Shown: positions 25,806 to 53,984 of the stretch, one piece after another
Layout: every line of letters begins with the position of its first letter
How positions within the stretch are numbered: the stretch's first letter is position 1
NCBI GenBank assembly: GCA_009760855.2
Contig: WPIO01000075.1
Span: forward strand, 868,501 to 932,500
Length of the DNA stretch: 64,000 nt
Reading direction: 5' to 3'
Source of the DNA: Cristatella mucedo
Taxonomy: Eukaryota; Bryozoa; Phylactolaemata; Cristatellidae
Position numbers and translations under genes: made by a program
The notes under the pieces: model-generated
The model's input: only the letters and a program-made list of their open reading frames with translations
Database searches by the model: none
What the model was told of the DNA's origin: nothing

Positions 25806-25838
25806 CTTCACTTTCGACATGTTTTTCGCGAAATGAAT
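25806..25838 (-). CDS. Candidate 33-bp micro-exon
   Basis: The acceptor is TGTTTTCTTTTTAG/ATTCAT and the donor GTGAAG/GTGAGA. It is open in phase 1-1 (SFREKHVESE) and phase 0-0 (IHFAKNMSKVK). A further 50-bp candidate (26127-26176, acceptor ATTATCAG, donor GTGAGT) lies upstream. Neither could be chained to other exons, so both are tentative. Confidence 0.25.
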
Positions 25839-27075
25839 CTAAAAAGAAAACAGTAAAATAATCACGTGGAAATCCACGGAAACGCGAATATGACAAAACT
25901 TACGGCGAAAGCCATACGATGCACTATTACATTGTAAATGGTATGGTCCAAGTCATCCAATCGTTACTTAACGCTACAGTGGGCAATCTTTGCAAACAAC
26001 CATGACCCTTCGTCTTCTAATAAAGCAGCTGCTAAGCCACGGGATGGTGTTAATAGTTCCACTGTAGGCTATGCTCGTCCTCTAAGCTACTGCATTTTCT
26101 GGCTTAATTAATGTTTTACAACTCACAAAAATATAATTTTCGCTATCGCAGGTAAATTTTCTTCCGGCTGCGCTTCCTGATAATTTTGCGTTGTGTTTGA
26201 TATAAAATAATAATAGAAATAAAATAGAATAGCAATTGATGAGAGAGGAATTGGCGGAGCGATGGCAGATTTTTATCCAGGGGATGGTAGGATCTAAAAA
26301 AAATTTAATGCAGCGAGCGAGACCCAAACATTTTACATGTAGGCGTGCCAAGACATTTAGCTAATGAAAACAGCCGTATGCCAAAATCAATGGTTTATTG
26401 GACACGACCTCGGCAGCCGCTAATCGAGTAGTGCTCCGGTCAAGGGCGTAAGCCTAGACGGCGACCCAGGTTGCTGTCACTTGTAAGAGAGGGGCAAATG
26501 CCGCCTGCCCCCTCTGGCTCCATCCTGAACTAGAATCATTTGGTTAAGGTTGTAGATTCGAAATAGTGCAATGCCCGTGATTATTACCCCAGAACTTTAC
26601 TTCGATAAGTTGGCCGATGAGACCAGGTGTGAATGTTAGGTGAAGATCGAACCGAAGCAGGTCTCAGTAGAGTACAGTTAGAACAGTTAGTTTAGTCGTT
26701 GTGTGCTGATCATTTTATGCTGTTCCATCCTCGCAACTATTCTGTATGAAGTCGCCTGCCATACAAACTGTAGCATGCAGGCATTTTTTGCGCTTTCACA
26801 AGTTCAGAGTGATAGATATAGATATTGCCGCTTGTTGAACTGTACGCCTCACTCACGGTCTTTATCACTTGGCTTGCTACAAGCCGTCAGATCAGAGCAA
26901 ATTTTACCCTTTCTACCGCTACCTTGTCAAGTAAAAGCTATTCCGAAATAACTACGATGCATACTCTTAAAATGCATTCGCAGCTTTCATAGAAACTTTA
27001 AATGCACACACGGCTAGGGATTCGCTTATCTTCTTTGCTTATCAGGCGTAAGCTTCGTATGACTAAAGCGTCACT

Positions 27076-30000
27076 TTACAGCAAAAGGCTAATAATTAGC
27101 GGTTGATACTGACATTCTCGATTTCCATCGTCGCCTCGTGTGTATGATTTCATTTGAGCTTGTACAGTCTCTGGAGAGCTGAATAGGTCTGCAAAACGAT
27201 AGAAAAAAACCAGCTACAATGTCTGACTGGTACGACCTGATTTACTGCAAAAACGTCACTTGCTGGCTTGGAAAACTTATGAATACGTTACATGCACAGA
27301 ACAGCCTTTAAGAGAACTTTATATTACTTACAACAAAGGCGCGGAAAACGTTACACGAGCCGACTCGACAAGCGATTAACTGCTACTAGTTAAGCGATCC
27401 AACAACTTAGCATAGAAATAAGCTATTTCTAAATCAATTAAAGCTCAATACTAATGACAATTAGTCTGCTAAATCAATTAAAGCTCAATACTAGTACGAT
27501 ATAAATTGATCCTAACAATTGTGAGCTTCGTCGCCGAAGCTGAGAAACAGAGCATTACAAATCAAGCATTAATCAGCCTTTAAGGTTTACTTACTTATAA
27601 TCGCATCTGTCTCCTTCCGTCTCATCTGCTTGGACATCGCTGGCAATTTCGCCGGAAGAGATGAATGAGATGTCTCTTTAATCGGATAGGGGTGCAACCG
27701 GGACCATAATTGTTCTGGAGAAGGTGAAGGACTTCTTGAGGACGGTGACGGCGAAGCTGAGCGGTCACCCGAGCCTGACAGAAGAGCAGACGTGGCAGCT
27801 ATACATTACATAATCAGTCTATCAGCCTCGACGAGGCTACTGCTACCGAGGACATTGACCTGCTAGGCCAAGACTATGGTCAGGGCCACGAGCTACTTCC
27901 GGCACACTGGTCAGAGTAGCTTTCATATGGGGACGCTAGGAGTAACCTCGGAAATAAGGCTTGACAAGGCGGGTGTTTTAAATAAAGTGCGACTTCCCTT
28001 TCGCGGCATACAAATAGACTTGGAAGAACAAAACTGGGAGGAGAACAAGCAGTATTTAATATTACATATAGGTATAGCACAGCCAGACGTAGTACGCCCT
28101 CTAGTTAAGAATATGCTAGTGATAGCACTTCAAACCTGAAAGATAACTCAGCGAAATATTTCTCCTATTGTACAGCTAGAGAATATCGAAATTAGAACTA
28201 CATATGTTCAGGCATATGAAAACTCGTGCTAAGAAACATCATAGGAAGTTGCAACCGGAAACTAAGTGAGATTCAATCATCGGTAAAGATCGAGTCTATT
28301 CTCCATCAGTAGCGATTCACCAGGGCAGGCACTTAATTCACACCCTGGTTGTATTCATAAATATACTTTTATAAACAGGTGACGTGAATGCACCCAACCT
28401 AGCTGGAGTGGCCAAAATTTCCATTTGCTGAGCTGCTTCAGTAAATATATTAATATAATATATAATATAATATATTACTATATTATATAATATAAAATAT
28501 AGTATTATATTAATATAACATAATCTAATATAATATATTAATATATATAATATATATATATATATATCTTGTTTAAATGCTCAAGAGACTTAATTGAGTG
28601 ACTTGACTTAATTTAAACAGCCAGTCCCTGACAGGTAGATAGCAAGCAAAATACTTGTCAAGAGCTGAATTTAGTATTATTTTAATTAGTAAATTTCAGA
28701 CCAACTCCATAGTCTTCTTCCCGCCGTTCACACGAGATAGAGAGAAACGAACGAACTAGTCACTGTAGCCGGCTTCTCTGCAGCACGCTACGTCGCTTAA
28801 ATGAAAACGCCAAAGATGGACGAAGCAGATGCTGCGTGCAGCATGTGGCCTTTGAGCTTCGCTTCTAATTTTGTCAAGTGATATTGTTGTATCGGAATTT
28901 CAGTCATTCTCAAGTCGCTTCAGGATTTAGATGCATAGGCACTGCGAGGATCATTGAAATACTTAGGTTTAATGTGGTCAGAGCTACATTGCAAGAAAAG
29001 CAGGAAAATATATAATAAAGTCAAACTTTAACATTTTTACAGCGTCACATGCAGGTGAGATACGGGGCTCGAGCCCACAACCTCGGACACATTCGCTGTG
29101 ACTTTGGTCAAGGCCAGTGCCACAATCACTGGGCTAAACCAGTTCGGCTATATACAAAACTGAAACCGAACGCTAATAGGCTGCAGCTTCATTTGGGTAT
29201 TGTTTTGTGCTCCCCATTCTCAGAACCAGAGGCAACTTGCTTGCGACTGCGCTCGCCATAGTTGTTGTGCTTTTACCTTTCGAGCACGTGCAGTTCTTTT
29301 TTAAGACATTCCACTCAGCCAGGCGCTCTAAAAAGACGAACAGACCGGCCACGCCCATGAGCATGTTCATGCCAATGCCCAGCTTTGCCAGATCTCCCCT
29401 GCAGAGGTGGCACGCAACAGTCATCACCCCTTTGCGTATTGTGCTCAAGACATGTAGCCCACTTACTATTTTGTAGCTCTTTCAATTGTCTTTTAAACGT
29501 ATCAGCAAACTTATCTAAAAACGATGGCGGCACCAATTTTTAACTCACTATCCAAATCTGTACTGCAGAGTTATGACTCAACTAACGACAGCTCACGAAA
29601 TCGCTGCCATTTACTTACGGGAACTCCAAAATCCAATAGACAGCAAAAATACAAATCAATTCACCCAGAATGCAATGAACATATGCCTATACTTATACAT
29701 TATAAGAGTTGTGATGCGGGTAAAACTAATTTACCATCGTTAAAAATCAATAAACCATAAAGCACGCTCTGCTGATACATATGCCTCTTATATTCCAAAA
29801 ATTTTGCTTACCCTTTGTGGCCTCGTCTGGTTCCTGGCCATGCTTTGCTTTATATACCTCAGCCATGAGATCTGGAATTAAAAAAATACTGACCGAGTCA
29901 TCCAGTGTCTCGGATTTCTCTGAGCTCATTTTGATTTTGTGTGAAGAAAAACGATCTTTCCCCGTTTTGGGGGATTTTAGCATTTTCAACACACTTTTTT

Positions 30001-33000
30001 ACTGACATCAAGTGCCCATTTTTACGGACTGACTGATTTGCGTTATCTTGTGGCTAATTTTCCCGGCCCAGCTCACATCAAGGGTCCCACACTCAAGTAC
30101 TCCAATACTCAAATAGAAATGAAATATTCTCCCACAAAAGTATGTGCTATCTATCATTCACCATTATTACCTACCAAAATCTGCTAATCTGACCAAATGA
30201 ACAGACATTATAAACTAACAAGGATGTCTAACCGAGCTAAGATCGAGAAAGGGTGCAAACATGACGACTTACTGTCTTTACCGACATGTAGACAAGAAAA
30301 GACTGCAAAACATTCCAATTAAACCTATCAAATGTCAACTCCAGCCTTTATAAAAAAAAATCCGTTGAACCACAGATGAAAAATTCAAAATTTTAAAAAT
30401 ACAATAAACTATCTCTTCAACCACTACCAAGTTACTATTGATTATCTATTGATATTTGTGGCAATCTCGCTTTACTATCGATCGATACTTTACTTACGAT
30501 CGCTTTACTATCCCATTTGTAAGTAAGATAGACACGATCATAAAATCCATCCCTAGGCAGCCAAACCCCTTTTGGACTTACTTTGACAAAAACCCCAAAA
30601 GGCTATCAATTTTGTGCAGCCCCTCAATGTCTACATTACGGGGTCAACTAGTGACATCATCCCGAATTAATTTGTATCCAAATTGAAGTAGACTACATTA
30701 GTAAGAACTAGACTTAGAAATAGACTACTACAGACCCTATTTCCTCTGTCCTACTTTTACGACGATAGATTTGCTGCTGCGATGTCATATTAACATAATA
30801 AATATGTCCTTTGCCGTAAAGTCGTGTCACTGCACATTTCAAAAGGCAGTAGGCCCCGAATTAGGGAAAGAAACACTTAGTCAACAGTCGAGGAGCTTCC
30901 GCCTAATCTCTTTTCTACCACTATCTAAGAAAATGGAATGAGTTACTGCAGACCAGCCAAACTCTTAGTATATTAAAACTTCAAACCCACCAAGTAAGTT
31001 TCAATCTGGTTTTAGAACTAATTACTCCAATAAGTCAGCATTGCTTCGGTGTATGACGACCTTATCGGTAATGCAAACTTAGGTAAGTCCCTCGGCTTGT
31101 TTTGCTCAATCTTTCCGCAGCATTTGATGCTATTGATAACCAAGTCTTTTACAAAAGCCTCTCCTCTCACCTGGGTATCATTGGAACTGCCGTGCAATGG
31201 TTAATGTCATACATTAGTGGGATACTCTACATTATGTCATACATTAGGGGAGATTCGATGCGAAAGGGCAAAGATAATCCGAGGAACAACTGAAGTACAC
31301 ATGAAGCCCCAGGCTCCGTGATTGATGGTCTCCCTCTTTTCCCTCTTTACATTCTCCATCTGTGCACCATTCTAGGTTTTCCATTACATGGACGACATTC
31401 AGTACCATAGTTACACCATTTGCTTTGTAAGCGCTCCAAGCCCGCTGCACGGCCAACTTTCTTAACTCCCTTGCTGAATGGATGTCTGAAATCCACACAT
31501 GAATGGTAGCAAAATTTCTCTAATAGAATGACGGCGAAACCAACTGACTAGTTACGGGCAAACTAAGGATTGTTCGGAAATTGAATAGCTTAGTGCTCAA
31601 AGTCAACCTACCAGCACATATCTCCCGCTGCGTCTCCACGAAATCTAGGCGTCCGGATCTAAGTGACCTTTTACTAGGCGACCACATCAGTTTCACAGTA
31701 TAGTCTGCATACTTTCGGCTACAATGCGTTAATAAAATTTGTTGTTTAGCAAGGATGCTACATCTCGGCTACAAGCATGCTACAGTTCTCCCACTCACTG
31801 CTAGCTTGTATAGCAGCATGCACAATCCGGCGTTTACATTTGATGCAAACCTTCGCAGCTAGTTTTATCTGTCGTGAAAGTCTTAGTTTCCAAATGAAAC
31901 CACTTTTCACCAGCCTGCACAGGCTCCGAATCAAGCAATGACAGTGAGGTCCTTGCATTAATTCCCTTCTGGCTTCAGCCTACCAATCAGATCTACTCTT
32001 CCGCTTCAGCCTACCAATCAGATCTACTCCACCAAGCTATGCAATCGAGACACATTTCCCGAATCAAGTCGTTTAGCTATACCTCGTACGAACCGCAAAT
32101 CCTCTGGAGACCGTACCTGTAGTTCATATGCTCATAGAGCCCGGAACACAGTCTAAATTGCACCACTATATTCCCTGATTTGACTATATCTAAAAAAAAA
32201 GCTAAAATCGCACCTGCTTATCACAGCCTTTTGTCGGTCCTCGCCTAGGCGTATTGACACTGTGTATGCTGCTACTAACAATTCTGAGGCAGAGCCTGTC
32301 GCTTTTAAACATGCTCATCTTGTAGACATTATGAATTTACCCACTATTTATTTTATCGTACACTTCCTTTACAGCATGTGTAAAGTGCCTAGAAAGAGAT
32401 TAAGTTCTCTGCTACTTATCATCATTGTTACTATCTTTAGTAGTAATAATCGCATTTGAGCATGCAAAATCGGATGTTTGAAGGCATCAAAACTTACATG
32501 GTTCACTAATATGGTAAGACCAGTGTTTTTAAACAGAAGACTGCAGCCATTGCCAATTTTCGGAATTATTTTGATCAGACTACACTGGTTACTCAAAGTA
32601 ACTAGGAGTTGCTCCTTTTTAGAAGAAAAAAGTGAACGACCGGAACAATTTTTTATTTTAGAATTCATTAAAAGATCATTTTGATTATTGAGACTGCTCA
32701 AGTGTTAAATGCAACCAAATTTTTAACTGCAGTATATCACGACTGGGAAAATTCGGCAATGCTTCGCTCCAGCATTCTAAATTTAGGAAAGAGCTGCTGC
32801 AAAGTGCTGTTTGGGCGCAAAGAAACAAAATCCATGATCGCCATTCTATCGCAAGAAGAAGCAACAGAGTGTTAAGAACATTCAAAGGAGCCTGCACCAA
32901 AAACGAGAGGCAGAATTAAAGGCAGCGATGGCTGAATTGTTCAGCTCTCGCTGCTTAGAATCGCAGCAATAGTTTCTATGATCGAAACGGGTTCAAGTTC

Positions 33001-33300
33001 ACGTAGTTGTATCGCTATAATTGCTACTGCTGGTGCCTTAGTGGGAAGAAAAATTACTCACAAAGCAAATCTGACAGGTTCGGCTAAGTAAAGTGAATCA
33101 CAGACCGTCACATACCGCTTACCAAATGTAAATTCTCTCAGGTAGTGTCCATAAGGCAAGAACGTGTCTAAAACGAATTTCAAAGAGCGTCTCAAAATAA
33201 CCACTCAATGCAAGGCCAAGTAGGCGCTCATCGTGCGGTTGCATTTGGCTTTACTTACACTCCATGTAAAGGCAAAGGTCCAGGAACGAGTAGGGAATTT
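27076..33300 (-). CDS. Micro-exon gene family, exon set D with possible terminal exon
   Basis: Phase-1 exons are at 33259-33300 (IPYSFLDLCLYME, 42 bp), 33123-33167 (TFLPYGHYLREFTF, 45), 30273-30302 (FSCLHVGKD, 30), 29812-29871 (LMAEVYKAKHGQEPDEATK, 60), 29467-29514 (KFADTFKRQLKELQN, 48), 29277-29393 (117, with a hydrophobic segment GIGMNMLMGVAGLFVFLERL followed by NCTCSK), 27595-27639 (MSKQMRRKETDAII, 45) and a last exon 27076-27188 (LFSSPETVQAQMKSYTRG and on, ending TAA). The 117-bp exon needs a GGGGAG acceptor six bases past a better CTGCAG, so its edge is doubtful. The hydrophobic stretch could be one membrane helix with a Cys-containing tail. A decayed LINE-A lies in the 30.3-33.1 kb gap. 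Function unknown. Confidence 0.5.
27430..27498. repeat. Short direct repeat
   Basis: CTAAATCAATTAAAGCTCAA plus TACTA occurs twice, about 41 bp apart. Confidence 0.85.
28440..28566. repeat. AT-rich low-complexity tract
   Basis: Imperfect ATATTA/ATATAA units with no G or C for long stretches. Confidence 0.85.
29040..29165 (-). mobile_element. tRNA-derived SINE
   Basis: The minus strand has an A-box-like TTAGCCCAGTGATTGTGGCA and a B-box-like GTTGTGGGCTCGAGCCCCG with tRNA-like spacing. It is located just beyond the 117-bp set D exon, in the intron. Confidence 0.5.
31060..32460 (+). mobile_element. Decayed LINE-A with RT start
   Basis: The text LNLSAAFDAIDNQVFYKSL is followed by SSHLGIIGTAVQWLMSYISG, the RT palm entry (L-D-L-S-A-A-F-D in the family). 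Later segments run to a recognisable tail GTGCCTAGAAAGAGATTAAG. It includes two small internal direct duplications (GTCATACATTAG, and GCTTCAGCCTACCAATCAGA). It lies in the set D intron. Confidence 0.65.
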
Positions 33301-33589
33301 CTGAAAAAGAGAATTCGGAAACGAAAATGTGTACCGCTCCTTCAAATATTCTAGTAGCTCCCGAGGTTTAAATCTGGGCATAGATAACGAGTAAATCAAC
33401 AGACTCTTAAGACAGGCTGGAAAAGCCCGTGTGACCCATGTGTTTCCCGTCAGCTTTGTGAACGGAGATTAGTCTGCTCAAACTCCGGGAGCCGCTTCAT
33501 TCACTAGTGCACAAGGGATCCCGTAGGGCCGTGAGAAGGAGCCACTGAAAATCCGGCGCAAAGCTCTGCGAACCGCATTTGACACCTCT

Positions 33590-33815
33590 GACCTCCGACG
33601 AAGATGTCATCGCGGCTACGGCAGCTCATTGTGCGTCTGGTATGACTTGAAGTGAACACAGGCAGCCTCCGAGACCTAGGCAGCTCATCTTACATCTGCC
33701 CTCTGACGCAGAGCTCATAATCGCATATTTCACAGCTAATGCAGCTCATTTTACACGTCTCCTCTGACTAAGAGCTCAGACTCTCGGCCTTCACAGTCAA
33801 AACGGCTCGTTGATC
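33590..33815. repeat. Degenerate ~61-bp tandem repeat
   Basis: About four units share GCAGCTCATTTTACA..CTC and CTCTGACNNAGAGCTCA. It is followed at once by the polypyrimidine run. Confidence 0.6.
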
Positions 33816-33844
33816 ACTACGACTCTAATGTCGTCGTGGCGGTT

Positions 33845-33985
33845 CTTTTGACTGTCTCCTGTCTTTCTCCGCCTCTCTGTGTGTCTTTCTCTGTCTCTGT
33901 CTCTATCTCCCTCTCTTTCTCTGTCTGTCTCCGTCTCTGTCTATCTCTGTTTCTCTGTCTTTGTATGTCTCTGTCTCTCGTAGTA
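33845..33985. repeat. (CTCTGT)n-like pyrimidine microsatellite
   Basis: Nearly pure C/T on the plus strand with TCTGTCTC units. Confidence 0.85.
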
Positions 33986-34610
33986 CTAGCTTCCTCAATT
34001 CCAGAACTACTGCTCAGGTGGCAAAGAACTGAATAAACAGATAATAATCTGTAGTATATTCGAAGTGCCTAGAAATAAGAAATTAAAAGTCCCTGATGGA
34101 ACGAATGAACGATGTGAACGTATTATTATTAGAAATATAACCAACAAATAGGCATGCATAATTACAGGGCAATGGAATCTTTAAAAAAAGAGAAGTTACG
34201 AAGTTACGATCCAAGGAGATTCACAGGATGGCTATCAAGTAAGGTGGCCAAGGAATTAAGCAATATTTCCCATTACATTATCTGTCAGCAGAAGCTCCCA
34301 CGCAAATGCTTAACCATAAAGCTGCGTAATCAGCATATGAAAACAAGGAGGTCACTTAAGGCTTCAATTAATTCGATGCACTTGCGCCCAGCAACATTTC
34401 CGCTTTTACCTGTTAGCACCGAAGTCGTCTGTGCACAGGTATACAAGTACAAACAATTAGTAAACGACAATGCCTCTAACAAACAACGGCATGCATCAAT
34501 GCGTACTTATTTTTTCTTGTCCTTTCGAAAAAAAACTCACATCAAGGAAATAATAATTGTAATTTCCAGGAAAGAAGAGAGCGAGCGCTCGTCACCTTGA
34601 CCTTTCTCAC

Positions 34611-37201
34611 AATGAATGTGGAATGCCCAATAAACTTTACGAACTTTGCGAAAAATCTTTACGAAAAATCTAGGTATACAGTTGATTATATAGAATAAGA
34701 CCCTCTCTCGGAAGCTCGTGGACAGCAAAACTACGTTATGGTCAGTTGAGTTGTCATAGATCTAGGTATACAGTTGATTATATACAATAAAACCCTCTCT
34801 CGGATGCTCACAATCAAACCCTCTCTCGGATGCTCATAGACAGCCAAACTACTAGGCCGTCAGTTGAGTTGTTTTAATTTGCTTTATTTATTAACTAGCT
34901 GCTTCAACAGCTGCATCAATAGACCGAATGTATATTAATTTCTTTAGGCCTCGACAGGTCATATAACTTTAATAATGTATTCGCATAGCACTTACTTTCC
35001 AGGATTGAAGAGGAAGTTAACTTTGCTTTCCAGTTAGATTCATTTAAATCTAAAAACATAGATCAAATAATGCATATGTTTTAATATATGACAGTCAGAA
35101 AAATAATTAATGTGCACAATTTTGTAAACAGAAGTCCGGCTGATTTACTATCAGGCGCTGAACAATGGGAAGAAATTTCCGTAGGCTTAAGTTAACTTGA
35201 TAGTGGTATTATTAAAACAACTTGGAAACGTTTGTCATTTTCCATATGTAATGCATTTTCTACCGTGAATAAGAGCTTCAAGAGTGCCATGAGCATTGCA
35301 GGCTGTTAAGCAATACATCGCATCTTTCTGAGAAAAATTAAAAATTCAGATGATTTACCTTGCAGATAGATTAATAATAGCAATAACACATATAACCAGT
35401 AGAGAAAAATAAATGCCTATGCAATAAACGTAAGCTATAAAGGAATCATGTCTACTTTTTGTGACCATAAATTAAAGACCCATTAAAGATATTATACAAA
35501 TAAAAATAACTATGGTAGCAACAACTGGTGCCGCACTTGCGAGTTGGTACGCACGAAATATTGTACCGAGGCACATTGGATGCTGCTATTAAAACTCGGC
35601 TGGAAATGGGATTGCTTACGAAATAGCGAGACAGACCATAGAAAACCAGAAAATTCGGTTTTCTAGCAGTTTATAGATATGTGATGCGGCTTATAGCCAG
35701 CTATACAATTATAGATTCATCCAGATCCGGAGCTATAGTTAGCTACATGACTAAAATGCAGCTGATCTCGATTTCAGATCGGTAGCCAGTCGCTTGCTGA
35801 ATAGCTGGCTAGCCGTACTAGAAAACTAAATGCACGACGAAATGAAGACAGCTTACCCATTTTATCCGTAGCAGCTTTTAGATAATCTGTCACCATTTTC
35901 TCTACTTTCTCTACAAGATGTACAAAAAGAATTAATTAAAGAGGAACAAGTATTTGATTCTATCCCACTGTGTCAATTAGCTCTACACCGAATAAATAAT
36001 ATTTAGCAGAAATTTGAAAAACTATTGAAAAACTAATATGCATTATTTTAGCGTGACTTTCTGATTTTAGAGAAGGAGTAAAAAAAGTTTCTGTTTAAAA
36101 AACGCGAAAAAGCGTAAATAACTTAAAAAAACTCAACACAAGTTTTAAGTGCTGCAAGCTAATGCTAAATGCCAAAATCTCGCTTGCAATATATTTTACA
36201 TATAACAATAATGAAAATGATTGCCGCCACCAAAGCAGAACAAGTAGGTCCCATCGATTAGGTCCCGAGATGATTAGTTCCAGAGACAACAGAGCATAGG
36301 ATGGTAAGGCCCCCCGCATGTTACGTAATGACTAAAATATTCCATTAATAATTGTATAATTCATAGTGTTTAATTGGTGATATATATATCACTAATTAAA
36401 ATTAACAACAACTTATAAACTTAATGCATGACAAATGACTTGTGATACAATTTAGAAATAGTTGCTATTTACTATAATAGTTAATATGATTATTTTGATT
36501 ATTAATAATGAAACAAATTTGTGATAGGATCAAATTCCTATATTGCTAATGTGTTGGATCGAAACAACTTTAAATAGAAACTAATCTTTTTAGGGATCTA
36601 AACTTCCAGTACCCATTTTTCTCGGGATCGAATTGTCAGGGGAGTCGAAGTGGCAGGACCTATTCGTCCGGGACCTAATCAACGGTAACTATTTGTCGAG
36701 GACCCTACTGTGACAATAGGCAAAGTATTCTTACAAAAAACATGAGATAATAACCTGCATGTACAAACTGGAGGTCAGCCAATTTGATTGAATAATTGAA
36801 AGTTACTTGTTCACGCCTTACCATCGGGCAGATCAGTCCAGGGCAATTTGTAAACTTCGCTATACTGTCGAACTAAGAGCGCTACAAACCACAAGAAATC
36901 AATTGATAATATGGTACAGAAATAACGGCAATACATATCTTTACTCTTTAAACTCCTTACCTGCCAAAACTCGACGAAGATCCACAATCAACCACAACGC
37001 TTCTCTTTCTAAAAATCAAAATCCAGAGCGAGCCAGGTGATAAGGTCAACGGGCAAAGCAATCAGTGAGTCTTACAGTCACAGCTATTGCGGGTAGCAAT
37101 GACGAAGATATGGCAAAGCTATGATGCAGCTCTTTTTCTGCCAGCGTGCTACGACTTACCGTGAAGGAGTTTGTAAATGTATACATACTCTTCATCAATT
37201 C
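34611..37201 (-). CDS. Micro-exon gene family, exon set C
   Basis: Phase-1 symmetric exons are at 37160-37201 (IDEEYVYIYKLLH, 42 bp), 36961-37008 (REALWLIVDLRRVLA, 48), 36822-36854 (YKLPWTDLPD, 33), 36735-36767 (CTCRLLSHVF, 33), 35857-35910 (KVEKMVTDYLKAATDKM, 54), 34996-35049 (LNESNWKAKLTSSSILE, 54) and 34611-34643 (RKVYWAFHIH, 33). The exon at 36822 could start instead at 36864 in phase 0. A 64-bp phase 0-1 candidate at 35264-35327 (KDAMYCLTACNAHGTLEALI) has an excellent acceptor but breaks the chain. A CpG island lies 0.7 kb upstream. A TIR element (36.24-36.71 kb) sits in one intron. Function unknown. Confidence 0.5.
34668..34875. repeat. Direct repeat of a ~95-bp unit
   Basis: Two copies of AGGTATACAGTTGATTATAT to GTCAGTTGAGTTGT lie in tandem. 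The second contains an extra partial copy of CCCTCTCTCGGATGCTCA. Confidence 0.8.
36242..36709. mobile_element. GGTCC terminal-inverted-repeat element
   Basis: The left end reads AGTAGGTCCCATCGATTAGG. The reverse complement of the right end reads AGTAGGGTCCTCGACAAATA, and both continue into GATTAGGTCCCG-like text. GGTCC/GGACC motifs recur inside each end and the middle is AT-rich with no frame. It resembles a MITE in a set C intron; its superfamily is not clear. Confidence 0.5.
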
Positions 37202-37899
37202 CTAAGAAAGACCAACAATTCTTGTTTTGTTTTTAACTACTACGCATACACACTCGCATGCAGACCGTGCGTGCAAAATTGCAGTTCAAGACCATGTTGG
37301 TGCACTGGAATTACTTATGTACGAGATCACTCAAACCTACGACTCGGATAAGATCTGGGCTTAGAACAGATGGCGGTGCCATATCGCAATCCCAATAGTT
37401 AAATTTATATTTATATCTAGTCTTTAATTCGAAGGCGGCGAGACTTCGATTCTTCGATGCCGCCCCTTCCTGCCGGTCAAAGGTCAGCCTTTGGCTGCCC
37501 TTATTTCTTAATTCTGGGAAATGAGCAGGAGAAAGTTAAAGAGGATCGTGACTTTAGAGCCAAGATTAATTAAGATCATGTTTTAAATGCGACCAACCAG
37601 CCTCAGAAGATCTCGGAGATGTAAAATTAATAACACTTCTATCCGCAGAGTCGTGGATTAGGCCACGACCACATTTTGGTGTCAGTATGTTTCGATGTTA
37701 GGTAAAACTGACAGAATAACCAAGGTATCTGAGTTGTGGAAAGATAATTTAAGCCAAATTATTAATGCTGCGCTTTTTTGAACTGGAGATGGCCGAACTC
37801 TGCATTTTGACATAAGATTATTTTGGTATACATTCAACACCTCTACAACGGTTCATACGACTGACACTAAAATATGTACTTGTCTCGCAAGAGGTTAGC

Positions 37900-38340
37900 T
37901 CACTAGATTTTAATCGTTGCACAGGCGTCGCGGCTAGAGGGCTCTGGCGGAGTTGAGCTGCTCTTACGTAGCTCGTCCGCCGGCGGCTACCCGAAGGGCA
38001 AATAGCGAGCTAGAGCAGTAGCAGCACTGCTGCTGCTGCTGCTGCGGCGGCGGCGCGGTGAGGTGTGCGAGCGCAGCTGACCCGTCATTTCCTTTCTAGT
38101 GGGGCTCTTCTGTAGTCTTTCTATGCAGAACGCACAGCGGGATCGACGACCTGCACCCCTTCGACCATCTCTCTCCGCTTTAGATGTCCTCGATGCGCTC
38201 GCAATGACGTCTACAAGCAGCACGCGCGGCTTTACTAGACGAGCCTCAATTTCAACGAGCAGCGGACGACCTTTGCGGACGACCTTTGCGCGAGACCTTT
38301 GCGCCAATTCAGTAAACACAGTCGACTAGTCAGTGGTCTG
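37900..38340 (-). promoter_or_regulatory. CpG island, possible promoter of set C
   Basis: This GC-rich stretch is 0.7 kb upstream of the first set C exon. It includes a (CTG)/(CGG) trinucleotide run at about 38021-38056 and a short direct duplication GCGGACGACCTTT near 38272-38290. An open frame on either strand has no recognisable domain. Confidence 0.35.
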
Positions 38341-39725
38341 GACGAAAAGTGGCCCGCCGCCGCCGAATATCAGAAGCAGTCTCTTTCAAAAAAACTATTC
38401 GTCTCTTCACTGGCGTCATTCGAGCAGGCTGTCGCACTCAGTTGACGACCACGATCAGTTAGGGTATCTTCGAAAAGCAACCGTGCGTAGGAAGATACGG
38501 ACTGACCTTGAATACTTATGATTTAAACTGCAACGATCCGCTTATCAATTAAAAATTGAAATCAAAGACCGTGGCTGATTAAAATTGAAGGCAAGTCTTT
38601 ACGTTTGACAGACCTTTCCGAATGGTTATAATAACGTGCGTGCGTGCGTTAGTTCGCCTGCGAAATGCAGGTCACTTAAATCCAATTGGCTACTAGCCGT
38701 GGTTACTTCACTCTCTTCCCTAATTTTCCTCATTTGCCATCTTATTCTCTCAGCTAATTGTTATTAATTATTCGCGTCTTTCTCGCGTCGTCAGTCTTTT
38801 CGCGACTCCGCACGACGCTACCGGCAATACCCACATCGGCATGTGCTAGTCCAGGCCCGCACAAAGCAAAACAAACATATTCGCTAACTCAGTGACCCCC
38901 TACAATTATTGATCATCTAGAATGAGGCTGCTTATGTAGCCTACTGTACACAGAGAAAGTGAACGCTAAAGCGTTCATCGTATCCCTTCCATGGCTAATG
39001 AGCCATTACGGCTCATAATACCAGAAGCCGAGCCAGAATTTTTAGGTTGGGGCCGAGGAATTCATTCAAGCTCATTCAGACATAATGGCGCGACATTTGC
39101 TCGACAAATATGAGACTTGCGCCCCAGGATATGAGAAATTTGCTTAAGATATAGGTCTTTCCTTCTATCCATGGTAGGGCTATTGTCCCCCTGCCCTTTG
39201 GCTTCGCCCCTGGCTAATAGCCAATAGCCTGCTCGAGTCGTCCTTAGGACAACCGAGTTCGAGCGTTTGGTCGGCTAGAGATTAGGAAATAAGCTTTTTC
39301 ATTGGCCAGCCAGCCAACAGCTCAGTTCTATCTAGAATTTGAAGGTTTCTCCAAGGTCGATAGTATACAAGTGTGTAACCAAAGACGAGATTTGAGCATG
39401 TATGCATTTTTTTGAGAGCCTATAGACGAATAGCTTTGGCGCATAGAACATTCGCCTGCTTTATTGCCGAACTCTCCACTCGCTCATAAATTTTATTATT
39501 CCGCACGGGGCACTTCCGAACCAGGTTAGTTAGCACTTCTTCCGCGACGCCTCGTCATACTCAGATAATCTGCTACATTCGAGGCATGAAATACGCCCCG
39601 CTCACCGAGTGGTCCTAGTAGTTCATCAAAAGTTGTCGCTTGCAAGTACGTGATGCGGTGAGGTAGGGTATCTGTAGGGTACCTCTTTAAACTTGGTTAT
39701 AGTTCCTGTGAGATGAAATCTCACG
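38340..39725. other. No gene recognised
   Basis: Between the CpG island and the last set B exon I see only a possible 9-bp symmetric exon near 39605-39613. That is too short to claim. Confidence 0.3.
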
Positions 39726-42700
39726 GAATACAGCTGCGGTAGCTGATTCTTTGCCAGCAGCGGTCAAGGCGTCTCTGGCATCTAAATAGATCAACCATCT
39801 TGATGGATTAGGATAGATAGGACTAATAATTAAATGCTTAGCTCATGGTAAGCCCATGATTCGTTCTTGAACTACCCGACACCCACCGGATAATGTTTAC
39901 ATATTTAGATCTCTTAGTCTGCAGCGTAGCAGTGCAGGCTGACCTTGGCCTAGACTATACAGCGGGATGCACATCAAATATCGCAATTCTGCCAGGCCAA
40001 AGCCAAAAGACAAATATATAATTACCTTTTGCAAGTTTAACTTGGACGTCGAAAAGCTCCTCAAATTTTTCTAAAATGGAGGTTTCATTCTTCTTTTTAC
40101 TTTATATGAATGCAAATTAATGCACATCGATCCAAAGCGGCAAAACGGATCCATGCAGTAGTAAAAGAAGACAATTGTGGAACTACGAGAGCGAAAGCAG
40201 CTTCAAATTCATTTGAATAAGTCAAACTCCAAACGAGCATGCGGTAGAGTAGAGCATAGGTAGAGTGTCTCTTGTTTAGCTCGATCTTTCAGCAGCTTTT
40301 GATACTATTGATCACAAAGCTAATCTAGAGCGCCTCTCATCTCGCCTGGGCATCACTGGCACTGCTCTGCAATGGTTCAGGTCCTATCTCAGTGGGAGAC
40401 TCCAGAGTATTGGCGTGAATGGACAAAGATCATCTGAGGTATCTCTGAAATATGGCGTACCTCAGGGCTCCGTGCTAGGTCCGGTTCTTTTCACGGTTAA
40501 TACTCTTGCTGATGTGATTGCCAAGCACAATCTAGGCTTTCACTTCTATGCGGATGACACTAAGTTGTACTTTTGCTTTGATCCCTCCCAGCCTTCGAGC
40601 ACCTTAAATTCTCTCAACTCACTTGCTGCATGTATTGATGACATTCGCACATGGATGGCAGCAAATTTCTTTCAAATTTTCTAAAGTTGGTCCATGCATT
40701 TGTGACATCCCGTCTTGACCTTTGTAACTCACTGCTTGCTGGTCTACCGGCACGTGCAATCAGGCGATTACAGCTGGTGCAAAACTCTGCAGCTAGGCTT
40801 GTCTGTCGTGAGCGTCGCAGTTGCCACATTACTCCACTTCTCGCAGACCTTCACTGGCTACCAGTCAAGCGACTTCAAGGTTTTGTAGCTCACTTTTAGG
40901 TCACTTCATTATTTGGCCCAAGCCTATCTCTCAGATATACTTCCCCACCAGGCCAAGCATCGTACCACCTGCTTTTCGGAATCCAACAGCTTACCAATAC
41001 CTCGTCCAAACCTCAAATCCTCGGAGATCGTGCATTTAGTTTGTATGCTCCCAAATCCTGGAACTCCCTCCCGACTTGCGTCACAACATTCCCTGACTTG
41101 ACCACATTTAAGAAGAACTTAAAAACACATCTATTTAAAACAGCATTTAGTGGGTCCCTGTGATTCGTCTGTGATGTGCTTATGCTTGCTGCACTGTGCA
41201 TGCTGCCACTAACCACATTTGCATGCTGACCCTGTGCATGTCACCCCTAACCATGTTATTCATGTTGTTTATCAAGCATGATATTACTCACCATTCAATC
41301 GTGTTTCCCTTTGCAGCAAATGTAAAGCGCCTAGAAAGAGATTGATTTCTCTGAGGGCGCTTTATCAAGTGCATTATTATTATTATTATTATTATAAACC
41401 ATAAACGGCCTTATTCTCAAATGAATGACACAGAGACCAGCACTATTTTCTATTTATAGGCTAAACATCTAACTAAGAAAACATTAAATTGCTTGTCAAA
41501 CAATATATAATGCTCCCCCCTCTTGTCTGTCATTAGAGCAAAATTCTTTAACAAAGCAAGTCTCAGCAGTGGGCTATTAGCTGACTATGGCCCTACCGTT
41601 TTTTAGAGCTACAATGCTACACATTTCGCTGGTTTCAGTGCAATGAGTGAATATAAGTATATAAATATGTACCTGCAGCGCACTGAGGTATATATCCGTA
41701 CTCATTGGCATATTGTTGCATCATCATATCTGAAAAATGAATATAGTCGTGTGCATAAAACCTCGACCAATTGCAAACCGTGGTTTTACAGCTTTCAAAA
41801 GCGAATCAAGCCTAAGGCACACGAAGAATAAAATCACATATAGCGTCCTACTATTACTTGTATTATATGATTAGCTACGCTTATATGAAATAAGAATTGT
41901 CGTTACCTCTCGTATCATCTTCACGTGGGCATAGTATGTCAGGAAGTCTTCCATACAGTACTCCTTTACACTATGCTGTTAATAGGAAAGTCAACCTGCC
42001 CCTACTTCTACTTATTTTCTTCGTTTTACTTATTTACTTTACTTCTACGTATTTACTTCGCTATTCTTTTTCTCTATTATTTTCTATTATTATTTCATTA
42101 TATATATATATATATATATATATTATTACCACGAAATATGCACGCTAAACTCAGGAGCCATTCCAGAATGTCCGAGCTTTGTCAGAACTGTGCAGCTTAT
42201 TTAGTGCAAGTTTCCAAGTCTATTATAGTTAAAATACGCAGGCTTGGATTTACGTACCACAGTCCTGTGGTGAATCCACCTCATCTGAGTGTTGGGTTTC
42301 TAATTATTTCCTCCTCCTGCTCAAATTAGGAATGTTTCTAATTCACCTCTCCAACGTTTCCCGCTATGGCAGGATCTTTTGTAGTGCTACACATTTATGC
42401 AGAGCTAGATGCAGCAGACGATGCAGAGATATAGACAGCGGCGCACTCGGGTCACCGGGTGAGGTCATTTTTAGTCACCGAGGCGAGGCGGCAGCGTGCA
42501 CTTGCAGGCCGTTCATCTGGTCACAACCTCATCTACTTGACCCAATGTTTCCCTCTTCTGCTTTTTGGATAGCCCTCCCCTTAATAGGGTCGCGCGTGTT
42601 TTCTACGTTTCAAATGGGCCTCAAGCAGACCACCAATGTCCAAAGATTTCAGCCATACGAAAGCTACACCACAGCATCCAGGTGAGTGCTATGGCTGTTG

Positions 42701-43283
42701 GACCGTTGGCATCTTGAGGTGAGGTTGGTACGACCAGATGCATACGGAAAGTGTGCTGTACAAAACTCTCCTACGTAACACCCACAGAGTCTTTGTGGAG
42801 ATACATTACATTAAATTACTGGCAGCACTCCGTGCGCATTCAGTATACACATGCCCAGTGCTCGAAAAGCATGCCGCAAGCGGTAAAGACAGAATTCTGA
42901 AAGCAGCGATGAGCAGACAGTGACGACACGAAGCAGACAGTGACGCAAATCGCGAAAGTGCGGCATCGTCTAGACCCGCGAAAGGAGCGTGCAGAGACGG
43001 TTGGCTCAGTCGTGAAGTATTTTGTGACAGCAGCGAAATTTCGCAGCAAACATATGCGTAAGACGTATTTTGTCGCGGCGGCGACGCTAAGAATAATAAA
43101 ACAAAATTACCGATGACTATTTTCCGCAGCACTTTGCTGTAGGGTGCGCGCTTTTCTGCAACAAAGGACGCCGTTATCGTTGCATGAATCGAAGAGGCCG
43201 TTCTCGCGCTCCGCTGCAGGTAACTAGACGGAGTTACTTACTATGTAGATATATGTACGTATCCCGGAGCACGGGCGGTATCT
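39725..43283 (-). CDS. Micro-exon gene family, exon set B
   Basis: Symmetric phase-1 exons are at 43242-43283 ([13 protein letters not shown], 42 bp, acceptor after a run of nine T), 43111-43155 ([14 protein letters not shown], 45 bp), 40026-40070 ([14 protein letters not shown], 45 bp) and 39725-39781 ([18 protein letters not shown], 57 bp). Each resembles the exon in the same position of another set. A 69-bp phase-0 candidate at 41907-41975 ([19 protein letters not shown]) looks related to the set A exon DVKELCM but does not fit the phase chain. Two upstream candidates (43947-43993 and 43691-43709, phases 1-0 and 0-1) would join in frame. A LINE-A copy sits in the intron at 40.26-41.4 kb. 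With no CpG island between sets A and B, both may be one transcription unit. Confidence 0.5.
40262..41395 (+). mobile_element. LINE-A copy with internal deletion
   Basis: RT text [17 protein letters not shown] and [16 protein letters not shown] is intact in frame. After [10 protein letters not shown] the sequence jumps to [20 protein letters not shown], skipping a segment present in the 11-12 kb copy. The 3' end has the stem-loop (41323-41363) and (ATT)n to 41395. It sits in the set B intron. Confidence 0.85.
42095..42124. repeat. (TA)n microsatellite
   Basis: A simple TA run in the intron region of set B. Confidence 0.9.
42735..42820 (+). mobile_element. LINE-B tail remnant
   Basis: The text ACAAAACTCTCCTACGTAAC and GTGGAGATACATTACATTA matches the last bases of family B. 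Confidence 0.5.
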
Positions 43284-44282
43284 CTATTGGTAAAAAAAAA
43301 TAATTTCTCTCTTATTATTTTTGAGCAAAATAGCGACACACCATATGCCACACGCACTGCAGCCATGTAAATGATAATGTGGACTTATAAAATCAATATT
43401 CTTATATTCTTAACATAGCGTGCACGAGTACGGCCTTCTAAATCATCTTAGAGTGGTAGGTGGGCAAGTGTTAATTCTGCGAGACTCGTTTTTAGTAGCA
43501 CTGTTGAGTTCACTCTATATTTATCTATATCGCCCTATATTTATATATTTACATTACGAAATTTTTCGTGCCTTTTCTACATCGCAGGAACTTGAATGAG
43601 AAGCCCGCCGATTTACGGATTGGCTTAAATGCCAGCCGGCGCAGTTCATTTGTTCATAACGTCTTGTTCATTTGTTTTCAGCAGTCTTACTAGTCTTCAA
43701 AAATAAGTGCTATGAATATTCACGCAAGGCCAAGAAATCATAAGTAATTCATACGCGTGCTAAAATACTCTCTTTCTGGAATAGAACATTGAATTGTGCA
43801 AACACTTATGAAATAGTTATAGGAAGGCTTTAAATCAGGCGGTATTAATTTCGCACACTTAAACGCTTGGAGAACAATATCACTGTAGGAGTTACAGCCC
43901 CCAGTCTCATCAATGTTCTGAATTATCGCCGGGTATTAAAACTTACACGCTTTCTCGTATTAAGATTGCGTTTCATTAATTGAGAACTCTCAGCTGTGAA
44001 GTCAGTTTGGTGGCCTCGCCAGCTAAATCAGTGGACACTCCCAAAATTAAACGTTCACCGTGTTTTCTCGTCGGCGCACGATAGAAAATTCTATTAAAAA
44101 CTAAAAGAAATTGTTAATTTATTTCTAAGGAATATTTATGTAGGGGGTGTCTACCTCCTTTCTTCTATAGATGCATTCCTCCCTGCGATTTTGATGCAAA
44201 ATTATTATTTAAAACCTCTGCTTCCCGCCGCAACAATTAATTTGGAACAACTGTGAGCAAAGCGAACAAGATTTATGCTTAC

Positions 44283-47200
44283 CTATTGCAGACGACAATA
44301 CTACAGGAAGTCACTATATTCTGCCGAAATTCAATAGAAACGTCGCACATGATAAACTTAATAGCATTAGGCAGAAGCAAAGAATGAAGGAGCGGGGAGC
44401 CCGCAAGTTTTTTCTGTCAAAGCTCCAGCAAACACCTCATTTATGAAAACGTTGCTAACAGAAACAGACGGAAGGTATGATTCAGGCACTTCATGACTTA
44501 CGCCGTGCTAGAAAGTCTTTTTCTGACAAGCGGCTGACCAGCTAGGCTGGGTTTACTCCTAGGTCAGAGGAAAACTAGACTCGCATGGTATTGCAGTGCT
44601 GGAATTTCCGGTTGCAATTTACCGGTTTCTGATATTTCTTTGCCAAGACAAAATAATAAACATAATAAAGGCATGAAATTCAAATAACGAGACGCACATT
44701 GAGATAAAGAGCTTTTTTTTATCAAAATATTGTCATGATTTGTTTCAGTAGTATTTGAGTTTTACGCTCTTATTATGTTTCATCTAGACGAAGTAATTCC
44801 AGGAAAACACGGAAAAGTGAATGTTCTTAGTTTGAGCTGCTGTTGTGAACAAAAGGGCGTCAAGAGAAAAGGCACAATCTTCTTTTAGCTGGCCATGAAC
44901 CCTTTAGTTTGCAAGACAATCTAAAAAAGTGACAACTGGGAAGTAATTGCTTACGGTAGCCGATTTGAATTGGCGTCTCTATGTCCCTATGGTGCTTCAT
45001 ACCTACAAGTAGAAAATTATTTAACTACATGTCGAAGACAGTGCTGGTTTCCGGCATTCATATTCGATCTAAAGAGATCTTCGACGTGGATTACAGAGGC
45101 CTTCTTGTGATTTAGATATAATTTTATGGTCAAGCTGAGAAAGAATTTAGCTCGCTGGAGGTTGGAAGCGGCACGTCAAATTTTCCAGCTTTCAAATTGT
45201 TTTGTCATTTACCTCCGACTGCGTTTTACTCGCTAGGAGTTACCGTTCCCCACTCCGCGGCAGAAAATCTGAGCATGACAAAAGGAGATCGCTAGTCAAT
45301 CACTGTGCATGGATACCATACGAAAGACGTATCTACGAATATAGTACCTCAGCTGTTCATAGCTAGAACAGAAGCTGGTAAATAAAGAAAATATTATGTA
45401 GCCAAAGCCACCGACCAGCAAAAAATCTGCGGTGCGAAAAAATGGTGCGCAAAAAATCTACAAAAAAAGGAGGATGCAAGCTGGTGAGCTCAGGAAGCTG
45501 CTTCACTTTACGCTTTGCTCGGACTTATGTGAGAGCCCGGAAGACACGGGTCAATAAAACGCTGACATAATATGTACTCTGAGGGAAACGAGAAATATTT
45601 CGGACATTGCCTGACATTTTCTTGGCCGTAAACATTAAAAATAAGTGAAGATGTTTGCGTAATAGCTTCATGGCTTACCATATAGATTTGGTTCTGCTTA
45701 ATGCACGGACGCGTAATGATAGTTAACGAAAAAAACAGACTTATTAATTATATAGCTCATAATTACAATGCACATTTGCCATGCATTTACAGGCTGAGAT
45801 GCACTAGCACAAATACCATTGAGGATTCGATTCTGCCTTTGTTAATGCAAAGCTATTTGTCAAAATTTGAAGCAGCGCCACGATTAGCGGCTGCGTTTAA
45901 AAATGTTTACATTTTCGGCTTAGTCTCATCCTGATCTCAATCATGAAATGGTTCGGGATATAACATTTTTGCTATGTCTTGGAGATTTCTTAGCATAGCA
46001 AACAGAAAGTATTATTCTCACCAGTGGATACTGACAAATGCCTGATATTGCCAGTATTACTGCAGGGCGGCAACTTTTTGAGAAAACTTTGCGTCTTCCA
46101 CGAGAGTAGAGTAAAAACGCTATACATTAAAACAAGACTTAGGCTTTCGCTTCCTTTGCTGCAATTTAAAACGTCACGCCCCACGTGCTACCAACGTCTT
46201 TGTAGTTGACAAGGCGTAATAAATCATTGCGGCATTCCTGAGTCGCTACCCGCCGCTGACGATGCACTTGGAAGCCCAGAAAATGCACGTATCTATCGTC
46301 GCCCCGTGACCTCGCCTCGTGCCCCTAAATCCTAAGCAACTTGCAGTTCGCCCGAGTGACTGCCGGTTATACTGCATGCTATTATCTCCAACTTCGTAAT
46401 TTGAAAAGAAATAAATAATGCTCGCTGCAGCTCGGCCTCAATTTTTTCCGTTTGGAGACGCTGGGGCCCTTGGGACTTTACCTCACTTGACTGTCCGGTG
46501 TCTACTATTGATCAATCCAGTAGGATTCCTAGGGGGGGCGGGGGTAATCCGAGAGCAACTGACGAGTGACACTTATATTCAGACCAAATAAAAATATAGG
46601 AGCAATAGAAACGAATTATCCAATAGCCTTCGAGCTACGACTTAAGATGTCGCTGCTAAAAATCCTGAGGAACCACCATTTTCACAAGCGAATGGCCTAA
46701 AATCAAACATTTTAACCAACCTCGTTGCAATGGCGCGTGGGCTAAGGACAGAAACGCATGCACAGACGCAACTGTCTGGTGTTCAATGCGATTCAACTAG
46801 AATAGAAAAATGACAAAAGTTGCATTTCTGATGCAAAAAGTGTACAGCAATCAGAACTATCGTTTACTGCTAAGAATTGTTGGGAGGATTTTATTTAGCT
46901 CACTAAATTTTCCCAGTGCTTAGCATAAAATACGGTATAGAAATCGGTACACTCACGATTCAAATCAATCGGCTTTGAAATATTCGACTTGAAAGATTTA
47001 TCTTGCTTTGTTGAGCCTGTAAAAAAGTTAGCCACAGCCGAATTAAATGTCAGCCATTCGCGCTAACTATTTACGTGTATAGCGGACGCCAAAACTAGAA
47101 ATGCCCGAATAAAGGGACATGAAAAATTGTTTGCTTTTTAGCTCCTTCGGGAGACGTTGCGACGTTCACTATGACTGGTTTCGGACTCTGGGAGAATCCA

Positions 47201-47746
47201 AGATTTGCCCTCTTAAGGATTTGAGCTGTCGACCGCAGCAGCACTCACTTCTCATGGATCTGGCTGCTGCCTTCAGGAAAGACATGCACAGTTCCTTAAC
47301 GTCGTCTAAAAACGCATAAAATGTATACAGTGTCCCGTCAGACAAGGTCAGGCTGCTTGGTTCAATTACTAAGCCCGCGTGGCATACACTCTCTTACCTT
47401 TGCGTAGACGGCGCAAGCCCGAAATCTTTCCGTCAGTGTATATTTTGGCTGCATAGTCTAAAATAAATCAAGTTTGTCGAATGAGTGAATTTTCAATACA
47501 AGCAGCTATCGCTGCCGAATAATCTCTTTTATCTTAGATGATGACTTCATGACGGCCTTTACCTTTTACCACGTTACTGAAAGCCTCCATGTCAGATTCT
47601 TTATCCTTGCCATCTAGAAAATTAATGTCGCTGCGTTAAGCTCCTCAAAAAGGTCCTAATTAGTGGGCAGCGTTAAGAAAAAGCCAAAATTCAGCAATGC
47701 CTACCTTCTAGGTAACGCCAAACCTTCACAAACTCTTTGGGAATAT
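44283..47746 (-). CDS. Micro-exon gene family, exon set A
   Basis: An unrecognised protein is built from small exons, all phase 1 to phase 1 and divisible by three: 47705-47746 (IPKEFVKVWRYLE), 47563-47613 (GKDKESDMEAFSNVVK), 47398-47457 (YAAKIYTDGKISGLRRLRK), 47249-47305 (DVKELCMSFLKAAARSMR), 46957-47016 (STKQDKSFKSNISKPIDLN) and 46721-46741 (HAPLQR). The acceptors have good pyrimidine tracts and donors are GTRAG-like. Weaker, also symmetric candidates follow: 45679-45696 (EPNLY), 44955-45002 (MKHHRDIETPIQIGY), 44502-44522 (KDFLAR) and 44283-44300 (LSSAI). The first six are supported by continuous phase and by related exons in sets B-D. A 5' exon may end at a GTAAGT donor near 48531, and a 32-bp piece near 48466-48497 could link it. 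No start codon was fixed. The CpG block at 48.8-50.3 kb is the likely promoter. Confidence 0.55.
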
Positions 47747-48035: not shown

Positions 48036-48759
48036 AGTTTAGCCCTTCTTTGCACGGAGCAAAGTATATACGGTCAAGTAAAGAAGAGACCTATGTACCG
48101 TGCATGTGCCAAACGAAGGCCAGCAACTGTTATCCGGTCTGTTTTTCATGCGCTAGTTCATGCACATATTGCAACGGCAAATTATTGAGAGCAGATGCTT
48201 ATTCCTATGGCCAACAGCTCACGAGCCTGCCATAAACGTTTCCTAGGATTCAAAGCTCAAAGATGACAAAAACGACCGCCCTATAATGACTGTAGAGGAC
48301 GCCATGCCACGCCATCAGGATGGTGCGTGGCTTGCTGCTTGTAAGTAATCAGTGCATGCGAATTGTAATAAAACTATCTGTGCAGTTAATTTCATAGATA
48401 TGAGAATAAAAAACGCAATGAAGTTCAGGCTAGGAAAGCTGTGAACCGCCTAATCCTACTCACGATGTCTTTTTATCATATCATATTCGAACAACCTAAA
48501 GAATATTAACTTGATAAAAAGGCACCTGCCTATTGATTAAACTTACTGGAAGGAAGCGTAGCGTGCAGGGTTGAGTTTATGCCTTCCCTTTCTTTTACGA
48601 GTTTGTGGAGGAACTGTCGAAGAAAACCTACTTGCAGCTTTTCAGCTGTACGGGGAAAACGACTGATGAAGTTGAGACTCAATTCTTGCCATTTTTTTGC
48701 AAGCAAACCTTTAGCCTTTCTAAGTGTCAAGGAGATCGCAAAGTTTGGACTCCTAGTTC

Positions 48760-50260: not shown

Positions 50261-50460
50261 GAAGCTGTGCTCATAGCAGGCTGTTTCACATGGTCGTCCT
50301 TTTATGATTATATTTACGTTAAATAAACACGTTTTTAGTTTAATTTAATTTTTGAAATAAGGATTTTAGGTTTAGTGTTTAAGGTTGCTTGTTTACGAGT
50401 TTACGGGATACGCTATGCTGGTTATATTCTTTCAGGTTTGAGTTCCTTATTCTTCCTCCT

Positions 50461-50516
50461 TGGCTAATCTAGTGGCTAATCTAATCTAGTGGCTAATCTA
50501 GTGGCTAATCTATTCC
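50461..50516. repeat. Short tandem repeat of GGCTAATCTAGT
   Basis: About four imperfect 12-bp units in the AT block of the first array copy. It is not seen in the other copies. Confidence 0.75.
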
Positions 50517-50830
50517 TAGAGGAATAAGCCCAGACTATTTGAGCACTAAAGATGATCCGAACTCCCCTGCCTCCTGCAAATGACAGTATACGGACCACCT
50601 CTAATACAGTCCACAGATGTTGCAACTAAGGAGAGGGAAATATAGAGGGGTACTAAAAAAACGTGCTTCTTTTAACGTGAATGCGTGCATGCGCAGAAGA
50701 CCATGCTGAACAGGATGCCGACATACGGCGGTGCGGAAGCGAGAGGTGCATGGGAACCGCTAAGAAATTAAGAACGAATCAGCGTGGTTGTAAACGTGCC
50801 TCCCAAACCCGAAAGCCTAGTGCTGCCAGC

Positions 50831-51316
50831 TTAATAATAATAATAATGCACTTGATTAAGCGCCCTCGGAGAACTCAATCTCTTTCTAGGCGCTTTACAT
50901 GTGCTGCAAAGGTAAATGCAATTGGATGGTGAGTAATATCGTGCTTGATAAACCAACATCATGAATAACACGGCTAGGGGTGACATGCACAGAGTCAGCA
51001 TGCAAATGTGGTTAGTGGCAGCATGCACAGTGTCAGCACGCATTAGCAGATTGAGGACGAATCACAAGGACCCACTAAATGCTGTCCTAAATAGGTATGT
51101 TTTTAAGTTCTTTTTAAATGTGGTCAAGTCAGGGGATGTTCCGACGCAGGTCAGGAGGGAGTTCCAGGCTTTGGGAGCATACGCACTAAATGCATGGTCT
51201 CCAAAGGATTTGAGGTTTGTACGAGGTATTGGTAAGCTATTGAACTCCGAAAAGTGGGTGGTACGATGCTTGGCCTGTTGGGGGAGTAGATCTGAGAGAT
51301 AGGCTGGAGCCAAAGA
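50831..51316 (-). mobile_element. LINE-A 3' copy inside a satellite unit
   Basis: The copy has the (AATAAT) end, the stem-loop, and then text giving YLSDLLPQQAKHRTTHFSEF and FKSFGDHAFSAYAPKAW. It interrupts unit sequence AGCTT/CAGAAAGCTCGCAC that is continuous in the copy at 55.25 kb, so the insertion postdates the repeat unit. Confidence 0.8.
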
Positions 51317-53950: not shown

Positions 53951-53984
53951 AGAAACAGCCATCTGAATAAATAAAGCTTTTTAA

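Follow-up and report, generated by a model that had tools for sequence, protein, structure and literature searches.

The window analysed here is a stretch of 64,000 nucleotides from Cristatella mucedo (positions 868501-932500 of contig C660, in an assembly of 688 contigs and 572,011,866 bases). Its minus strand carries, between 29277 and 47746, an uninterrupted chain of 20 GT-AG micro-exons of 42-60 nt (mean 50.6) that can be read in a single frame. All 20 have a length divisible by three and all are in phase 1-1, split after codon position 1, and the skipping of micro-exons would preserve the frame. A preliminary description of this DNA had reported at least 20 exons of 18-60 bp in phase 1-1, most of them divisible by three. 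The number, the phase and the divisibility hold; the lower end of the size range does not, as no 18-nt exon was accepted and the shortest accepted exon has 33 nt. The 42-bp exon that it had placed four times on the minus strand, at 47705-47746, 43242-43283, 37160-37201 and 33259-33300, is correct in position, quoted peptide, AG acceptor and GT donor.

Gene model and its surroundings

The chain was first read by hand on the minus strand and then by script, with splice scores taken from simple tables that were not trained on Cristatella mucedo. The gene model runs from 48775 to 20849 on the minus strand and contains 29 exons with 2418 coding bases, which read in a single frame as 805 codons plus a stop. 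Its introns are 79-3251 nt long, with an upper-middle value of 807. Exons of at most 60 nt account for 1122 of the 2418 coding nucleotides, and a single exon of the 29 (33 nt) is no longer than 36 nt.

The candidate first coding exon (48547-48775, 229 nt) begins with MKILTG and ends in phase 1. Its start codon was assigned by inspection only; the open frame extends further upstream, and an alternative ATG at 48964 is possible. A TATAAG at about 48827-48822, also picked by inspection only, is a candidate promoter. Four blocks of micro-exons follow. Block A (46957-47746) contains exons at 47705-47746 (42 nt), 47563-47613 (51 nt), 47398-47457 (60 nt), 47249-47305 (57 nt) and 46957-47016 (60 nt). 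After it comes a doubtful exon A6 (44955-45002, 48 nt) with a weak donor, which may instead be a last exon at 44860-45002. Block B (40026-43283) contains exons at 43242-43283 (42 nt), 43111-43155 (45 nt), 41673-41729 (57 nt) and 40026-40070 (45 nt); a fifth exon was searched for in this block and none was found. Block C (34996-37201) consists of exons at 37160-37201 (42 nt), 36961-37008 (48 nt), 36822-36881 (60 nt), 35857-35910 (54 nt) and 34996-35049 (54 nt), and block D (29277-33300) of exons at 33259-33300 (42 nt), 33123-33167 (45 nt), 29812-29871 (60 nt), 29467-29514 (48 nt) and 29277-29327 (51 nt).

The phase of the micro-exons is carried on by three linker exons in phase 1-1 (25806-27774): a Ser/Pro/Arg-rich exon of 180 nt at 27595-27774, one of 75 nt at 27114-27188 with the donor GTCAGT, and one of 33 nt at 25806-25838. 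Larger exons complete the model, namely exon 9 (24772-24905, 134 nt, phase 1 to 0), exon 10 (22901-23251, 351 nt, phase 0-0), exon 11 (22709-22748, 40 nt, phase 0 to 1) and the last exon, exon 12 (20849-21175, 327 nt), which ends in TAG. Between exons 11 and 12 stands a doubtful exon 11b (22012-22049, 38 nt), picked for joining the two in frame. Exons A6, 7, 11b and 12 have uncertain junctions.

Upstream of the gene, about 11 GGGGC units stand in a run at 49521-49578, and the region 49600-56400 is GC-rich. By eye, a block with GCTTCGGAAAGGCGGG...CTCGAACCCGAACGCC occurs there about four times (near 50050, 52350, 54600 and 56270), with the ends of L2-like LINEs in between. A tandem repeat of 21/42 bases in 5 to 10 copies lies at 63428-63640. 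Downstream, an open candidate exon at 7841-7966 on the minus strand encodes RGG/GRGG residues and perhaps belongs to a gene for an RNA-binding protein. Neighbouring open reading frames on the contig, at 757976-758569 on the plus strand and at 826521-827096, 780794 and 792184 on the minus strand, resemble, as judged by eye, a TBCK-type kinase, a GT92 glycosyltransferase and sushi domains. Non-coding RNAs and tRNAs were looked for in the window and none was found.

Order of the exons in four blocks, and one gene or two

The repeated exon order claimed earlier is upheld by a permutation test. Exons 1-4 occur in the same order in blocks A-D, with a mean like-with-like exon score of 11.2, which ranks 2 of 13,824 label permutations and lies 9.7 s.d. 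above 500 shuffles of residues within exons. When exon 1 is left out, the order still ranks 2 of 216 permutations. The mean like-with-like scores of exons 1 to 5 are 16.8, 4.0, 10.3, 13.6 and 4.8; exons 2 and 5 thus match weakly among blocks, with off-diagonal scores of up to 3.6. At the DNA level, copies of exon 1 have 15-26 of 42 bases in common, and blastn between blocks gave no match except for B against D, which lies in introns and which we interpret as L2/CR1-like LINE sequence, judging by eye from the open reading frames there. This low DNA likeness suggests that the duplications are old or that the sequence changes fast. Pieces of L2/CR1-like LINE reverse transcriptase, very common on the contig, are present at 40280-40684, 18037-18753 and 11122-11556 (plus strand), and in the introns of blocks B and D.

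We give about even credence to the reading that these exons form one fast-changing, unclassified animal gene at about 48775-20849 (minus strand), encoding a largely helical protein about 800 residues long in which a module was repeated four times by tandem duplication of an exon cassette. The preliminary description spoke of a family of genes. From the exon layout, one gene or two neighbours would fit better than four, and one gene is our best reading: the phases chain across all four blocks, and in the gaps B-C and C-D candidate first exons were looked for and none was found. A family of four genes was therefore rejected, and what survives of the family is the pair of neighbours, a serious rival because of the gap between blocks A and B. 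Local tandem paralogues were rejected as well: when 304 kb of the contig were searched with the model by tblastn, everything that matched beyond the gene had E >=0.55, and the flanking 120 kb on each side contained no complete second copy.

Two neighbouring genes of one family are a real possibility, though the less probable reading. Gene 1 would then consist of the 229-nt first exon and block A, with the last exon at 44860-45002, and gene 2 of an alternative first exon at 44623-44674 (minus strand), blocks B-D and the larger 3' exons. This alternative exon encodes MPLLCLLFCLGKEISET, which is signal-peptide-like (hydropathy 2.93 over 9 residues), and has a phase 1 donor; it may be the start of a second gene, whose product would be secreted, like MEG and bicycle proteins. 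It is one of two candidate first exons in the gap A-B, against a mean of 0.55 in shuffles, and exon A6, whose donor is weak, can be read onward to a stop at 44860. However, the MPLLCLLFCLGKEISET peptide is short and its DNA is T-rich, and signal-like first exons have a background rate: 22 of 205 candidates in the 304 kb (both strands) are as hydrophobic by the hydropathy rule, a rate of 0.72 per strand in 20 kb, at which about 0.13 would be expected in the gap A-B. Candidates for a last exon in this gap are also close to the shuffled number (12 vs 8.6; B-C, 6 vs 4.6; C-D, 3 vs 4.4). Upstream of block A there are five candidate first exons ending in phase 1, none with a clear signal core by a simple hydropathy rule.

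For the single gene that we prefer, a module would comprise about 65-90 residues, made of four helix-like pieces, each filling one exon of 42-60 nt, and a looser fifth. Four such modules would stand in a row, and the larger exons would encode the C-terminal part. The blocks may have arisen when recombination in introns duplicated a multi-exon cassette in tandem. As all introns of the row are in phase 1, gain or loss of an exon or a module would keep the frame, and the repeat could thereby grow. As to the function of the protein, we infer that the modules may form a helical scaffold whose length could be changed in evolution and perhaps in splicing.

Relatives in the genome, constraint and chance

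When the N-terminal part of the model was compared with the assembly, all 14 matches lay inside the gene, a search from which diverged short exons would escape, and the 77-aa first exon matched only itself in the 572 Mb. The C-terminal part gave seven matches: three to the gene itself, two on contig C673 and two weak ones (E 2.9 and 9.8). The two on C673 are decayed relatives of exon 10 with 47% and 45% identity, one (L036) with four stops and the other (L037) with one stop and frame jumps; exon 10 of the gene has no stop in 117 codons. Both align with exon 10, the next intron and exon 11, and the alignment to the window breaks off close to where exon 10 begins. The upstream parts of L036 and L037 resemble each other, and the 10 kb upstream of L037 (L040) showed no other exon. 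We note that these decayed partial copies of exons 10-11 (L036 1501-1869 and L037 1501-1830) lie about 30 kb apart and are 74% alike over 1079 bases. A viral origin of exon 10 was considered in one scan of viral contigs, which gave no match.

Relative to these two copies, exon 10 has 0.388 and 0.414 substitutions per site and the next intron 0.284 and 0.379. The dN/dS of exon 10, with 112 of the 117 codons used, is 0.75 (0.42-1.38) and 0.78 (0.45-1.33). Exon 10 has thus diverged no less than its intron, which indicates no firm protein constraint; such divergence fits a fast-changing gene and a relaxed gene too. The exon chain could accordingly be the remnant of a working gene from which strong constraint has gone. 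We consider this improbable. The divergence at about intron pace, the dN/dS intervals that include 1 and the decay of both relatives speak for it, but all 805 model codons are open and the splice sites are intact, although stop-bearing exons could not enter the model, and the first exon and the long exons 10 and 12 are also open.

The number of such exons in the gene was compared with that expected by chance under a fixed rule (acceptor score >=0, score sum >=6, length 30-66, divisible by three, open in phase 1). On the minus strand, this rule gave 21 candidates in 28-48 kb, 17 of which are model exons, and 8 in the other 44 kb of the window; the plus strand gave none in 28-48 kb and 3 elsewhere. 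The preliminary description had named the absence of an excess of symmetric GT-AG micro-exons over shuffled sequence as evidence against its view, and an excess was found: when the 20 kb were shuffled 100 times with a first-order Markov model, the mean was 1.21 candidates and the maximum 5. In 304 kb of the contig with neighbouring candidates merged, the 20 kb of the gene count 19, and the best of the other 20-kb windows (2-kb steps, all outside 888000-918000) count 4 on this strand and in this phase and 5 on any strand and in any phase. Phases 0 and 2 gave 8 candidates each in the 20 kb on the same strand, which are probably in part the same short exons open in more than one phase. Over the 337 codons of the 20 exons there is no stop in the reading frame, which was chosen, and there are 21 and 28 in the other frames. 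Chance open stretches between AG and GT are a very improbable account of the chain. Isolated ones are common, as the 8 outside the 20 kb illustrate, but 19-21 of them here stand against a shuffled mean of 1.2, an empty opposite strand and a maximum of 5 in the remaining 20-kb windows, and their order is repeated across blocks.

The predicted protein and known micro-exon genes

The model protein contains 13 Cys in 805 residues. Its maximum mean hydropathy over 19 residues is 1.31; there is no strongly hydrophobic stretch, which argues against a membrane span. The helical hydrophobic moment over 16 exons is 0.389, compared with 0.243 in 500 shuffles (s.d. 0.032, maximum 0.341); taken singly, 5 of the 16 exons stand out from their shuffles at a level below 0.05. 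The earlier statement that no known domain is recognisable holds for Pfam and for PDB sequences, with no match past threshold in either. In Pfam no family exceeded its cut-off (Terpene_syn_C_2, E 0.017 and 0.16; CheW, 0.027; IMS_C, 0.13; Not3, 3.3), and a terpene synthase (PF19086) was rejected at 15.3 and 12.2 bits against a curated cut-off of 23.7. Among PDB sequences none was significant: the block profile reached E 0.032 at best (PCI-domain protein 8amz_R), followed by 0.18 and weaker values, and the N-terminal and C-terminal parts reached 0.43 and 0.64. Structure prediction of exon 10 alone gave a mean pLDDT of 43, which is unusable.

Exon-per-helix repeat proteins in general resemble this gene in having introns at corresponding places of repeated helical units; they differ in that no known repeat family passes the Pfam or PDB threshold here. 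The likeness to micro-exon genes of flatworms, suggested in the preliminary description, stands for the layout and the symmetric exons only. The source is not a flatworm and the exons are longer. The flatworm mitochondrial code (table 9) would read AAA as Asn and ATA as Ile. In COX1 (contig C688, best of 6 matches), compared with the solved chain 7o37_a, AAA stands at Lys in 2 of 2 cases and ATA at Met in 9 of 10, so COX1 follows the invertebrate mitochondrial code and the micro-exon gene is not that of a flatworm. We take COX1 and the L2-like LINEs to look lophotrochozoan. Further pieces of COX1, containing TGA codons, lie not on the 21-kb contig C688 but on C166, C83, C549 and C299, perhaps as nuclear mitochondrial copies.

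In schistosome MEGs (PMC10526429, PMC5825161), about 80% of the coding sequence consists of exons of 6-36 bp (or as long as 81 bp), and MEG-26 members have a repeated exon-length pattern and an amphipathic helix. Short symmetric exons are found here too, but they measure 42-60 nt, and exons no longer than 60 nt supply 1122 of the 2418 coding nucleotides. MEGs are also characterised by protein variants that arise when exons are skipped. For the signal peptide of MEGs, the hydropathy rule finds no counterpart upstream of block A, and a signal-like exon is present upstream of block B.

Among the literature matches listed, no micro-exon gene of this kind appeared in another group, the known ones being flatworm MEGs and the aphid-type bicycle and megacycle genes. 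A protein repeat of same-phase micro-exons would thus have been found outside the two lineages for which these literature matches describe such genes. If expressed, it could be used to test directly whether repeat genes expand rapidly when their introns share a phase, and whether genes of this type are in every case secreted effectors or can also be ordinary cell proteins. A bolder proposal, which we think has only a slim chance of being right, is that a micro-exon gene with all introns in one phase arose a third time, independently, in an animal outside the flatworms and probably outside the hemipterans as well. Blocks B-D and the signal exon would then encode a secreted, fast-changing protein whose helices or whole modules come and go through splicing and the duplication of cassettes, providing a repertoire for encounters with other organisms.

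According to Stern and Han 2022 (PMC9168663), bicycle genes have about 17 exons, many of them small internal ones that nearly all start at codon position 2, and occur in aphids, phylloxerids and scale insects; megacycle genes have more than 100 micro-exons, occur in aphids alone, and encode proteins with internal repeats and intron positions in common but little sequence likeness. Cys-Tyr-Cys motifs are described there for bicycle proteins and as absent from megacycle proteins. By eye, no repeated Cys-Tyr-Cys is apparent here, unlike in bicycle proteins, and none of the 13 Cys of the model recurs at a matching position in the blocks. The present gene, with 20 micro-exons, also differs in size from megacycle genes, and its secretion signal is unsure. 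On the other hand, all 20 micro-exons and exons 6-8 start at codon position 2, as in both groups, and the block test shows internal repeats with intron positions in common, as in megacycle proteins. By analogy of layout alone, with no membership claimed, the closest known systems would be the bicycle genes and, above all, the megacycle genes.
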